This document shows positions 17,567 through 20,452 of a DNA stretch of 64,000 nucleotides, one piece after another; position 1 is the stretch's first letter, and every line of letters begins with the position of its first letter. The notes below the pieces were generated by a model. The model was not told the DNA's origin and ran no database searches. It worked only from the letters and a program-made list of their open reading frames with translations. The translations under genes and the position numbers were made by a program. The stretch covers positions 186,001 through 250,000 of the forward strand of contig NZ_FUYC01000001.1 in NCBI RefSeq assembly GCF_900167125.1. Reading direction: 5' to 3'. This DNA is from Paucidesulfovibrio gracilis DSM 16080. Lineage in GTDB: Bacteria > Desulfobacterota > Desulfovibrionia > Desulfovibrionales > Desulfovibrionaceae.

Positions 17567-18725
17567 GACACGCTATTCACGCCGCCGGGTTCTGCGTATC
17601 CTGGCCTCACTTTCCACGGCGCTTCCCCTGTTTCCAGGTTTGGTTCGCGCTGCATCCGCTCCACCGCTGGATCAAATCCATGCTCTGGTAGGGCAGATGC
17701 TGCTCGTGGGTTTTCGCGGCACCCAGGCTCCCGAAAATTCCCCTGTGGCCCGCGACCTTCAAGCTAGAGACAAGGGAGGCGTCCACGCAGCCGGAACCGT
17801 GCTCTTTGACTATGACATGCAGCTGCATCAATACGGCCGCAACGTGACCGGACCGAAGCAGCTTCGGCAACTGACCGACCAGTTACGTCTGCACGCTCCC
17901 ACGGCCCCCCTCCTCGCCGTGGATCAGGAAGGTGGCCGAGTCCAGCGCCTCAAGCCCGAACAGGGCTTTCCTGGCATTCCTTCGGCCCGGGATCTCGGCG
18001 CTGCAGGCAAGGACACCTCCGCCACGTTCCAGGCCGGTCAAAAGCTTGGGCGCATGCTGCACAGCGCCGGGCTGAACCTGAATTTCGCTCCAGTGGTGGA
18101 CGTGGACCGGAACCAGAGCAGCCCGGCCATAGGAGCCTTGGGCCGGAGCTATTCCCCGGATCCGGACATAACGACCCGGCACGCTGCGGCCTTTATCCGC
18201 GGGTTGCGGGAATATAGCATTCTCAGCTGCCTCAAACATTTTCCCGGACATGGCTCCGCCGCCGAGGACAGCCATGCGGGGCTGCCCGATGTGACCGGGC
18301 TGTGGTCCGAGGTGGAGCTGCTTCCTTACACAACGCTCCTGCCCCAGGGCATGGCCGACATGGTCATGGTGGCGCACCTGTTTAACAGGGAATGGGACAC
18401 CCGCTTCCCGGCCAGCCTCTCGCGGTCCGTTGTCCACGGCATGCTGCGTACGCGTCTTGGTTTTGATGGCGTCATCGTCACGGACGATCTGGACATGAAG
18501 GCCGTGGCCGATCAATATGATCTGGAGCAACGAATTCTCCTGGCCGTACACGCTGGAAACGACCTGCTGCTGTTCGGCAACAACCTCCGGTACGATCCCG
18601 ACCTCGCCCCCACGGTCCGCGCCATTCTGCTGGAGCATATCCTCGCGGAGCGCATTTCCGTGGAACGTATTGTAGCAAGCCTGCGGCGCGTGGCCCGGCT
18701 GAAGCGTTCCCTGGCGCCCTGTTGA
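17559..18725 (+). CDS. nagZ: Tat-exported GH3 beta-N-acetylhexosaminidase
   Basis: The protein is 388 residues of glycoside hydrolase family 3. It has substrate-binding LAVDQEGGRVQRL, the NagZ-type acid/base loop KHFPGHGSAAEDSH, and the nucleophile Asp in VIVTDDLDM. It would remove N-acetylglucosamine from muropeptides or other glycans. Unlike cytoplasmic NagZ it begins with a twin-arginine signal (SRRRVLRI followed by a hydrophobic run ending VRAASA), so it is predicted periplasmic. ATG 17559 or 17565 both fit; the frame stays open to 17274 but lacks a family N-terminus. It overlaps the N-terminal coding region of the divergent rhomboid gene. Confidence 0.88.
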   Translation: MGMTRYSRRRVLRILASLSTALPLFPGLVRAASAPPLDQIHALVGQMLLVGFRGTQAPENSPVARDLQARDKGGVHAAGTVLFDYDMQLHQYGRNVTGPKQLRQLTDQLRLHAPTAPLLAVDQEGGRVQRLKPEQGFPGIPSARDLGAAGKDTSATFQAGQKLGRMLHSAGLNLNFAPVVDVDRNQSSPAIGALGRSYSPDPDITTRHAAAFIRGLREYSILSCLKHFPGHGSAAEDSHAGLPDVTGLWSEVELLPYTTLLPQGMADMVMVAHLFNREWDTRFPASLSRSVVHGMLRTRLGFDGVIVTDDLDMKAVADQYDLEQRILLAVHAGNDLLLFGNNLRYDPDLAPTVRAILLEHILAERISVERIVASLRRVARLKRSLAPC

Positions 18726-18830
18726 ACCGCGCATCTGTTTCCGCTCTTTTCAATGCAGGCCCAACAATTCAAAAAAGCAATTTGTGGGGAGCACTCCCGG
18801 CGTACTTGTCTTGCCTCCCCCAACAACACA

Positions 18831-18859
18831 TTGACAGCCCAAACAGAAGTCAGTAACGT
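18831..18859 (+). promoter_or_regulatory. Promoter of the trp leader
   Basis: TTGACA (18831-18836), a 17-base spacer and TAACGT (18854-18859) form a good sigma-70 promoter. Transcription would begin about 18866-18868, that is, at or next to the ATG of the leader peptide. Confidence 0.65.
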
Positions 18860-18866
18860 TGTTCAC

Positions 18867-18944
18867 ATGAAGCGAATCATCCTGACCGGGATTTCCCGGA
18901 CGCAAAACCAAAACTTTTGGTGGTGCTGGCGGCACAGAACGTGA
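18867..18944 (+). CDS. trpL: trp attenuator leader peptide (25 residues)
   Basis: The ATG opens a 25-codon frame ending in TGA. Near its end it reads Phe-Trp-Trp-Cys-Trp, so three of four consecutive codons specify Trp (18918-18929), a very unlikely arrangement by chance. Immediately after it lie the alternative stems and a terminator, and then trpB2. No SD precedes the ATG and the promoter places the transcript start at it, which suggests leaderless translation. Ribosome stalling at the Trp codons when charged tRNA-Trp is scarce would allow read-through into trpB2. The peptide itself needs no other function. Confidence 0.85.
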   Translation: MKRIILTGISRTQNQNFWWCWRHRT

Positions 18945-19004
18945 GCCGTCGGCAGGGATGATGCATTGAATCAACAGCCGCGGGTTCACGACCCGCGGCT
19001 TTTT
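18924..19004 (+). promoter_or_regulatory. Trp transcription attenuator with alternative stems
   Basis: Segment 1 (18924-18933, within the Trp codons) pairs with segment 2 (18945-18954) in a 10-bp stem with two G-T pairs. Segment 3 (18976-18985, AGCCGCGGGT) pairs perfectly with segment 4 (18991-19000) in a 10-bp terminator stem followed by five T residues. Segment 2 can instead pair with segment 3 (CGGC with GCCG, one bulged T, CCG with CGG), which would prevent the terminator. This is the classic 1:2/2:3/3:4 logic of trp leaders. Confidence 0.82.
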
Positions 19005-19040
19005 CATAGCTCCCGACAGGGCAAGACCTCCGGGATGGCG

Positions 19041-19078
19041 AAAAAGGGTTGCGGGATCGAAAACCGCAACCCTTTTTT
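19041..19078 (+). terminator. Second terminator hairpin before trpB2
   Basis: The stem GGGTTGCGG/CCGCAACCC, extended by five A-T pairs, ends in six T residues, 12 bases before the trpB2 SD. It is a strong, nearly symmetric intrinsic terminator placed between the attenuator and the gene, with no other gene to serve on either strand. Confidence 0.7.
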
Positions 19079-19102
19079 CGTACCAACACCAGGAGGAACA
19101 TC

Positions 19103-20452
19103 ATGTCCAATGCCCACGATCGAATCATTCTTCCCGCCGACAAAATGCCCACACAATGGTACAATCCACAGCCGGATCTGCCCACGCCGCTTGCTCCGCC
19201 TCTGGATCCGGAAACCCATGAACCTGTCACGCCGGACCAATTGGGGGTTATTTTTCCCACGAGCCTCATTGAACAGGAAATGAGCCAGGACCGCTGGATT
19301 CCCATCCCCCAACCCGTCTTGGACGCCTATCGCCTCTGGAGGCCCACGCCCCTGATCCGCGCTCGGAACCTGGAAAAGGCCATTGGCGCCAAGTGCCGGA
19401 TATTCTACAAGGATGAATCGGTATCTCCCGCAGGTTCTCACAAGCCCAACACGGCCGTCCCACAGGCGTATTTCAACATGACCGAAGGGGTGAAACGTCT
19501 TTCCACGGAAACCGGGGCCGGGCAGTGGGGAACCGCGCTTTCCTTTGCGTGCAGCCAGTTCGGGATGGATTGTACGGTCTATATGGTCAAAGTCAGTTAC
19601 GAGATGAAGCCGTACCGACAAATCCTCATTCGCAACTATGGGTCCACGGTCCACCCTTCTCCCTCGGAGTTGACCCGCACCGGCGCGGAAATGCTGCGAC
19701 GCGATCCCGGGTGCAAAGGAAGTCTGGGTCTGGCCATTTCCGAGGCCGTAGAGGATGCCGCCACACACGATGACACAAAATATACGCTGGGAAGCGTACT
19801 CAACCATGTTTTGGTGCATCAGACCATCGTGGGTTTGGAAACGGAACAGCAATTGGCTGAACAAGGGTTGAAGCCGGACCATCTGGTGGGTTGCGTGGGG
19901 GGCGGTTCCAACTTCGCCGGTTTGGTTCTGCCGTTTTTGCGCCGCAAACTCGATGGGGAAAACATTCACTTCGTCGCCTCGGAACCCCGTGCCTGTCCGA
20001 GCCTGACCCGCGGAGAATACCGCTACGACTATGGCGACATGGCCCGTCTGACTCCGCTCATGAAAATGCACACGCTCGGACACGCGTTCATGCCCGCTCC
20101 CATTCACGCCGGCGGACTGCGCTACCATGGAGACGCTCCCATTCTCTGCAACCTGATGGAGGAAGGATTGATCGACGCCCGGTCGTATTTCCAGACCGAT
20201 TGCTTTGACGCGGCCCGGCTGTTTTTGCAGACGCAAGGCTTTTTGCCCGCGCCCGAAACATCCCATGCCATCAAGGCGGCCATTGACGTTGCCAAGGAAG
20301 CCGGACCCGATGAAAACGTGGTTTTCCTCTACTCCGGTCACGGCATGCTCGACCTTGCCTCCTACGATGCCTATCTCAAGGGGAATCTGGACAACTTTGA
20401 ATTGCCCCAATCGGACATCGACAATGCCCTGAAGGAATGCCCACAAATCTGA
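19103..20452 (+). CDS. trpB: Tryptophan synthase beta chain, TrpB2 type
   Basis: The protein is 449 residues, longer than TrpB1 (about 400), with the TrpB2-type N-terminal extension and SPAGSHKPNTA carrying the PLP lysine, followed by TGAGQWGTALSFA and the phosphate-binding CVGGGSNFAG. It condenses indole (or indole from indole-glycerol phosphate) with serine to make tryptophan. ATG 19103 has AGGAGG at 19091-19096. It is not accompanied by trpA, as is common for TrpB2, and may salvage indole. A Trp-codon leader and attenuator immediately upstream tie its expression to tryptophan supply, which supports the assignment. Confidence 0.95.
   Translation: MSNAHDRIILPADKMPTQWYNPQPDLPTPLAPPLDPETHEPVTPDQLGVIFPTSLIEQEMSQDRWIPIPQPVLDAYRLWRPTPLIRARNLEKAIGAKCRIFYKDESVSPAGSHKPNTAVPQAYFNMTEGVKRLSTETGAGQWGTALSFACSQFGMDCTVYMVKVSYEMKPYRQILIRNYGSTVHPSPSELTRTGAEMLRRDPGCKGSLGLAISEAVEDAATHDDTKYTLGSVLNHVLVHQTIVGLETEQQLAEQGLKPDHLVGCVGGGSNFAGLVLPFLRRKLDGENIHFVASEPRACPSLTRGEYRYDYGDMARLTPLMKMHTLGHAFMPAPIHAGGLRYHGDAPILCNLMEEGLIDARSYFQTDCFDAARLFLQTQGFLPAPETSHAIKAAIDVAKEAGPDENVVFLYSGHGMLDLASYDAYLKGNLDNFELPQSDIDNALKECPQI

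Follow-up and report, generated by a model that had tools for sequence, protein, structure and literature searches.

A predicted tryptophan attenuator ahead of a stand-alone trpB2 in Paucidesulfovibrio gracilis, and leader-like sequences at other aromatic pathway genes of Desulfovibrionales

The trpB2 locus

The window, i.e. the whole stretch of 64,000 nucleotides that was analyzed, carries a gene for a TrpB-like PLP enzyme, which is preceded by a short open reading frame and two terminator-like hairpins. The features are, in order along the DNA:

18831..18859, plus strand: predicted promoter (TTGACA at 18831-18836, 17-nt spacer, TAACGT at 18854-18859; 7 nt to the leader ATG)
18867..18944, plus strand: leader peptide ORF (ATG at 18867, 25 sense codons, stop TGA at 18942-18944), probably leaderless
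18918..18929, plus strand: putative regulatory codons Trp18, Trp19, (Cys20), Trp21
18925..18933, plus strand: segment 1, pairs with 18945-18953
18942..18953, plus strand: segment 2, opens with the stop codon; partner is segment 1 or 3
18977..18989, plus strand: segment 3, 5' arm and loop of the terminator; partner is segment 2 or 4
18990-18999 and 19000-19004, plus strand: segment 4 and T5, predicted intrinsic terminator
19045..19078 (hairpin 19045-19073), plus strand: second terminator-like hairpin and T run, terminator-like on the minus strand too
19091..19096, plus strand: Shine-Dalgarno sequence AGGAGG of trpB2
19103..20452, plus strand: trpB2, 449 aa, TrpB-like PLP enzyme (PRK12391/TIGR01415)

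The product of trpB2 scores above the curated cut-offs of both PRK12391 (681.7 bits, cut-off 366) and TIGR01415 (619.3 bits, cut-off 518.85), and its closest solved relatives, 6hul, 4qys and 6hte, are deposited as tryptophan synthase beta chain 1 or 2. Upstream lies a beta-N-acetylhexosaminidase-like gene (below the family cut-off) that ends at 18725 and downstream an isocitrate dehydrogenase gene, and trpB2 is therefore not part of a trp cluster. The genome's trpEGDCFBA operon, which includes trpB1, is found about 55 kb away (trpF was assigned by position, with no match at the threshold used), and TrpB1 is 31% identical to TrpB2. Both the family scores and the distance to the operon bear out the initial annotation, which had called the gene a trpB2 standing alone. 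Such a pair, with trpB1 in the operon and trpB2 elsewhere in the genome, corresponds to the trpB2_o arrangement described in the literature (PMC1854888, excerpt; here and below, papers so marked are cited from a part of their text), and indole scavenging is a published statement on beta-2 proteins (PMC2700814, excerpt).

The leader and its alternative stems

The 25-codon ORF in 18867-19004 encodes the peptide MKRIILTGISRTQNQNFWWCWRHRT, with Trp codons at 18918-18920, 18921-18923 and 18927-18929. Three mutually exclusive pairings can be drawn: 1:2 (18925-18933 with 18945-18953), 2:3 (18942-18953 with 18977-18989) and 3:4 (18977-18986 with 18990-18999), the last being a 10-bp terminator that is followed by T5 at 19000-19004. 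The ORF, the Trp codons, the three alternative stems and the terminator with its T5 had all been pointed out from the letters alone, and each was found in its place. Two details were corrected. The peptide had been said to end in FWWCW and in fact runs on for four more residues, RHRT, and the stop codon had been described as followed by the stems; stem segments do lie there, but the stop codon itself forms the first part of segment 2.

The RNA from 18867 to 19010 folds with −65.6 kcal/mol (z = −5.69), and none of 200 shuffles was as low. When both strands of the 64 kb were scanned for clusters of three Trp codons in a short ORF at most 200 nt ahead of a high-scoring terminator, this was the sole locus (listed twice, once per hairpin); the same scan found nothing in 20 dinucleotide shuffles (one strand each), and its criteria were set after the element was known. 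A plain terminator scan of the window did no better than shuffles (1 found vs. 0.9 expected). A chance neighbourhood of ORF and terminator was rejected on the z-score of the fold, the single-locus scan and the conserved Trp clusters in homologues.

Conservation of the leader among relatives

We collected 112 regions upstream of trpB2, 82 from genomes of the order and 30 more from a search of the family. The gene was present in 82 of 199 order genomes and in 76 of 288 family-search genomes, and one genome gave two regions. A homologous multi-Trp leader was found in 14 of the regions and a different, single-Trp leader in 25 (genus g8); no leader was counted in 72 others, with families f2, f3 and f5 screened by Trp-cluster filters only, and the last region was too short to be judged. 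The set of 14 was read by hand, because the Trp-cluster filter was too strict (11 multi-Trp matches). It spans four genera in two families (g1, g9 and g2 of f1, and g43 of f4), with the leader in 3/3 regions of the own genus (g1), 3/3 of g9, 7/13 of g2 and in one of g43. Three regions with no matching terminator or alignment were left out, L196 (g53, MLEKFVSRHWRGWRHIR, weak terminator), L130 (genome G002) and L161 (genome G027), and so were L125, L126 and L224 of g7, whose ORFs hold a W-G-R-W motif. Within g2 no leader was seen in six of the 13 regions, one of which (L201) holds masked N runs; this could possibly be a contrast of gain or loss inside a single genus.

Trp clusters are kept in 14/14 leaders, with TGAAGCCGCCGGC / GGGCCGCGGACTTC / GGACCGCGGCCC-like segments, and segments 1 to 4 align. 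In the 14 sequences 93.5% of the cells were paired for 3:4, 94.4% for 1:2 and 91.4% for 2:3, as compared to at most 59%, 68% and 42%, respectively, in controls with slid partners. Compensatory change was modest, as only three pairs in 3:4, none in 1:2 and one in 2:3 had changed on both sides. Covariation as high was reached by 5 of 500 shuffles for 3:4, by 56 of 500 for 2:3 and by 484 of 500 for 1:2, and the latter two pairings did not clearly exceed the shuffle control. Low variation is expected here, since such segments must pair with two partners. An alignment of this kind had been proposed in the initial annotation as a check for conserved Trp codons and compensatory changes; the codons and the stems are indeed kept, but double-sided changes are few. 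It had also named a lack of Trp codons or stems in related genomes as evidence against the reading, and many relatives do lack the leader, while 14 retain both. A covariance model built from the 14 leaders recovered 13 of them in 285 family genomes and the one of G048 in 101 order genomes, all with more than 70 bits, and the next best match in either search had 37.3 bits. At 16 more distant trpB2 loci from other phyla Rfam reported only tRNA and tmRNA, and the 449 nt upstream of the gene showed no ORF in which Trp codons neighbour each other.

A promoter-like sequence is conserved as well. TTGAC, a 17-nt spacer and a −10-like hexamer that ends 5-9 nt before the ATG are found in 14/14 homologous leaders. 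The −10 hexamers match poorly, at 2 to 4 of 6 positions across the leaders (3 of 6 in P. gracilis), and a general promoter scan of the window reported none at the leader. The conserved spacing from promoter to ATG would place +1 on or beside the A of the ATG, and the leader mRNA is thereby predicted to be leaderless.

Proposed mechanism and folding models

Taken together, the ORF, the codons, the stems and the conservation of the stems, all read from the sequence, make it highly probable that 18867-19004 is a ribosome-mediated tryptophan attenuator for trpB2. Transcription would begin on or beside the leader ATG, with translation of the leader by a ribosome following immediately. With ample charged tRNA-Trp the ribosome would arrive at the stop codon (18942) and cover segment 2, letting 3:4 pair and transcription terminate at 19000-19004. 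When charged tRNA-Trp is short, the ribosome would stall on Trp18, Trp19 or Trp21. Segment 2 begins only at 18942, downstream of the last Trp codon (end at 18929), and a ribosome on any of the Trp codons should therefore leave this segment free; 2:3 would pair before segment 4 exists, and transcription would continue into trpB2. If the leader is not translated at all, 1:2 would form and termination would be favoured. We infer the start of transcription, the stalling, the response to tryptophan and the passage of the polymerase through the second hairpin (19045-19073). The initial annotation had implied control of trpB2 by tryptophan starvation; the Trp codons, the three stems and their positions, kept in 14 leaders, support such control, but it would not be universal among relatives.

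Equilibrium folding with a ribosome mask was rejected as a test of the switch, as it mostly returned the terminator whatever the state. When the ribosome was placed on the last Trp codon, 3:4 formed in 14/14 leaders (P at least 0.84 in 13 and 0.61 in P. gracilis), with the ribosome on the first Trp codon P of 3:4 was above 0.5 in 9/14, and in P. gracilis with downstream RNA included 3:4 folded even in the stalled state. Co-transcriptional snapshots were therefore used, in which the RNA was folded in silico only as far as segment 3, and the leading edge of the ribosome was set, from general knowledge, 12 nt past the first base of the A-site codon. In these snapshots the expected number of 2:3 pairs (mean of 14) was 13.5 with the ribosome on the first Trp codon, 12.4 on the last, 2.6 at the stop and 4.7 with no ribosome, and for P. 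gracilis the corresponding values were 11.9, 11.9, 0.3 and 0.0. Without a ribosome, 2:3 formed instead of 1:2 in 3 of the 14 leaders. The energy of 2:3 was −15.5 to −21.3 kcal/mol in 14/14. Since the equilibrium favours the terminator, the switch must be kinetic, relying on 2:3 being formed first.

A second hairpin and alternative explanations

Between the attenuator and the Shine-Dalgarno sequence of trpB2 sits a second terminator-like hairpin, AGGGTTGCGG-N9-CCGCAACCCT followed by a T run, which is absent from the initial annotation. The stem is perfect with 9-10 bp, and the run is T6 in P. gracilis and T4 and T5 in two congeners. The hairpin is kept in 3/3 genomes of the genus, with a T-A to C-G change in the stem, and the same scan did not report it in the other 11 homologous leaders. 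Transcription that reads through into trpB2 would have to get past this hairpin, which should itself act as a terminator. A dispersed repeat was rejected, as the genome holds no second full copy and the best other match is the hairpin's own reverse complement. Part of a coding ORF was rejected too, as that ORF is by eye not kept in the three genomes.

The second hairpin could be given a role in a two-stage attenuator, where formation of 2:3 frees segment 4 to pair with the 5' arm of the second hairpin (4:5) and thereby opens the second terminator. A 4:5 duplex of 8-9 bp (−13.8 to −15.8 kcal/mol) can be drawn in 3/3 genomes of the genus, and the conservation of the hairpin in all three congeners with the base-pair change in its stem would agree with this. 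However, the hairpin's own pairing (5:6) is stronger, −16.8 to −19.2 kcal/mol, and was present in the minimum-energy folds of all six states computed. The 4:5 duplex may be a by-product, because the arms share GC-rich motifs, and it is based on three genomes without a shuffle control. We consider the two-stage arrangement unlikely. Two terminator-like hairpins in a row, the second so on both strands, could also be ordinary tandem terminators that end the hexosaminidase-like gene, where the Trp ORF would be incidental and trpB2 would be transcribed from an unseen promoter. This we find very improbable, as the Trp codons, the position of the stop codon and segments 1 and 2 are conserved together with the terminator in 14 leaders, and TTGAC lies at a fixed spacing directly before the leader ATG in 14/14. 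The 24 nt from the T run of the second hairpin to the trpB2 ATG are moreover too few for a standard promoter.

Another Trp-responsive switch at the leader, such as a T-box, a riboswitch or a site for an RNA-binding protein, is harder still to credit. No Rfam family reached its gathering score at the leader, the Trp codons are conserved, and the best sub-threshold match was Termite-leu, on the minus strand with 25 of the required 51 bits (E 0.003). Neither Trp_leader nor T-box matched the window at its gathering score, and both were also absent from 18700-19200 when E values of up to 10 were allowed. With no Rfam match, a T-box or other known RNA family was rejected as the identity of the element.

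Relation to known systems

Trp attenuation in E. coli is built on trpL, a short ORF with clustered Trp codons, on 1:2, 2:3 and 3:4 pairings and on an intrinsic terminator. The proposed ribosome-mediated attenuator of trpB2 has the same parts, but unlike trpL it has no match to the Rfam family Trp_leader (RF00513), precedes a lone trpB2, is predicted to be leaderless and has a second hairpin downstream. The mechanism is ordinary and the setting, trpB2, is new; the element lies outside Rfam. In S. meliloti, trpL/rnTrpL is likewise a Trp attenuator and a known leaderless case, its RNA starting at the trpL ATG, but it controls trpE(G), and its leader peptide and sRNA act in trans (PMC7298713, excerpt). 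Predicted attenuators are also published for trpB2A of Corynebacterium diphtheriae and trpS2 of Streptomyces avermitilis (PMC1262725, excerpt). The one in C. diphtheriae, as in P. gracilis, is a Trp attenuator ahead of a trpB outside the main trp operon, but there trpB2A is a second operon with trpA in another phylum. Closer at hand, D. vulgaris has a putative attenuator ahead of aroA'-aroB'-aroQ-pheA-aroF-tyrA-[trp operon] (PMC1173090, excerpt). It belongs to the same order and has the same kind of aromatic pathway cluster as P. gracilis, but the excerpt marks the attenuator at the cluster head only and gives no leader peptide, tyrA-trpE attenuator or trpB2.

From an earlier Rfam-based survey it was proposed that attenuators for amino acids originated in Gammaproteobacteria and were seldom transferred (PMC3766115, excerpt), and TrpR is reported absent outside Gammaproteobacteria (PMC5343134, excerpt). 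The conserved trpB2 attenuator and the attenuator-like signals in the main cluster (below) point to a way in which tryptophan synthesis could be regulated without TrpR in these presumed sulfate reducers. Among licensed PMC papers, none was found that joins Desulfovibrio, tryptophan, attenuation and leader peptide, or attenuator, leader peptide and Desulfovibrio, and the matches listed held no earlier report of the trpB2 leader element.

A different leader in genus g8

The g8 leaders of trpB2 have exactly 23 residues with one Trp in 25/25 regions (L098:1232-1413 and 24 further loci). Codons 13-23 give RGW[RL]NVKRP.S in every one, and most also retain the TPIS start despite synonymous changes. 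TTGAC lies 36-38 nt before the ATG and TA 18 nt past the hexamer in 24/25 (the exception is L087). The final codons pair, as an antiterminator, with a stretch that takes in part of the terminator's 5' arm and the bases ahead of it. These duplexes had a matched mean of −24.1 kcal/mol vs. −21.1 for swaps between species, a mean that was reached by 0 of 10,000 permutations, with related species that are not independent. Where codon 22 has changed, the leader pairs better with its own partner than with the common type in 5/8 cases and not in the other three. The mean P of the terminator was 0.89 with the ribosome at Trp15, 0.94 at the stop and 0.49 without a ribosome. Since the terminator is mostly formed at Trp15, simple starvation sensing is not well supported in g8. 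A peptide-based mechanism is possible, and the nearly invariant single-Trp peptide could even be a ligand-sensing arrest peptide.

Leader-like sequences in the main aromatic cluster

The initial annotation had set the lone trpB2 against a trp operon as the place of the leader; the leader does precede trpB2, but the trp cluster too has attenuator-like signals. At the head of the aro-tyrA-trp cluster of P. gracilis (L003 17909-18001, minus strand, outside the window) lies a leader, MNSHKDLGVFASFYFWYWFTRVSGHGRVVA, that holds FASFYFWYWF. As at trpB2, TTGACA is separated by 17 nt from a −10-like hexamer, here 6 nt ahead of the ATG, and downstream of the leader lies a hairpin. An ORF rich in F/Y/W (5 or more of 9 residues, including a Trp) was found in 19 of the 20 other cluster heads fetched, 17 of which were chosen by a weak model match, a biased choice without a shuffle control; the three chosen by position alone were all positive.

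The TyrA-like enzyme encoded upstream of trpE ends in ARWWWRSES in P. gracilis (L003 12703-12740, minus strand, outside the window). TyrA was present in 137 of 150 genomes; 109 tyrA-trpE junctions were fetched (28 were not), one shortened sequence was dropped and 108 were kept. WWW occurred within the last 45 TyrA residues in 87/108, and not even WW was found there in TyrA homologues from outside the order (0/25). Where trpE lies at least 60 nt from tyrA, WWW was accompanied by a terminator-like hairpin in 61/68 junctions, and where trpE overlaps or abuts tyrA, WWW was found in 2/13. With no trpE in view, WWW was still present in 21/27, 20 of them from genus g3. In snapshots of 61 junctions outside g3 the number of antiterminator pairs was 12.8 at the first W and 5.0 at the stop, without a shuffle control, and 57 of the 61 differed by at least 4 pairs between these two positions. 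These sequences suggest that the C-terminus of TyrA with its WWW may act as a leader peptide for trpE across the order. Neither of the two junctions from the own genus gave a scored terminator (a hairpin without a U run), and attenuation there may therefore be weak in P. gracilis. WWW may not be purely regulatory; it is kept in g3, with no trpE found adjacent to it, and a role in the protein or ancestry is therefore possible. If the junction works as it seems to, regulatory RNA pairing would shape the end of an enzyme, and attenuation with the tail of a functional enzyme as its sensor would be a new form of this control. Both this junction and the g8 peptide are more surprising as leads than the trpB2 attenuator.

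A further stand-alone gene is found in genus g14, where a second trpB apart from the operon encodes a protein 54-57% identical to TrpB1 of P. gracilis. A WWWR leader lies about 150-210 nt upstream of this gene in 10/11 genomes (L371-L381). Our confidence is evenly balanced on whether Desulfovibrionales use tiered ribosome-based attenuators, with a Phe/Tyr/Trp leader at aro-tyrA-trp, the WWW of TyrA for trpE and Trp leaders at stand-alone trpB genes (trpB2, and the other trpB in g14). In D. hydrothermalis the separate trpB DESAMv2_21414, presumably of the g14 type, was lowered along with the aro-tyrA-trp genes under high pressure, in a set of only 65 changed genes (PMC4162548, excerpt). Although pressure is not Trp limitation, the response fits shared control of these genes.
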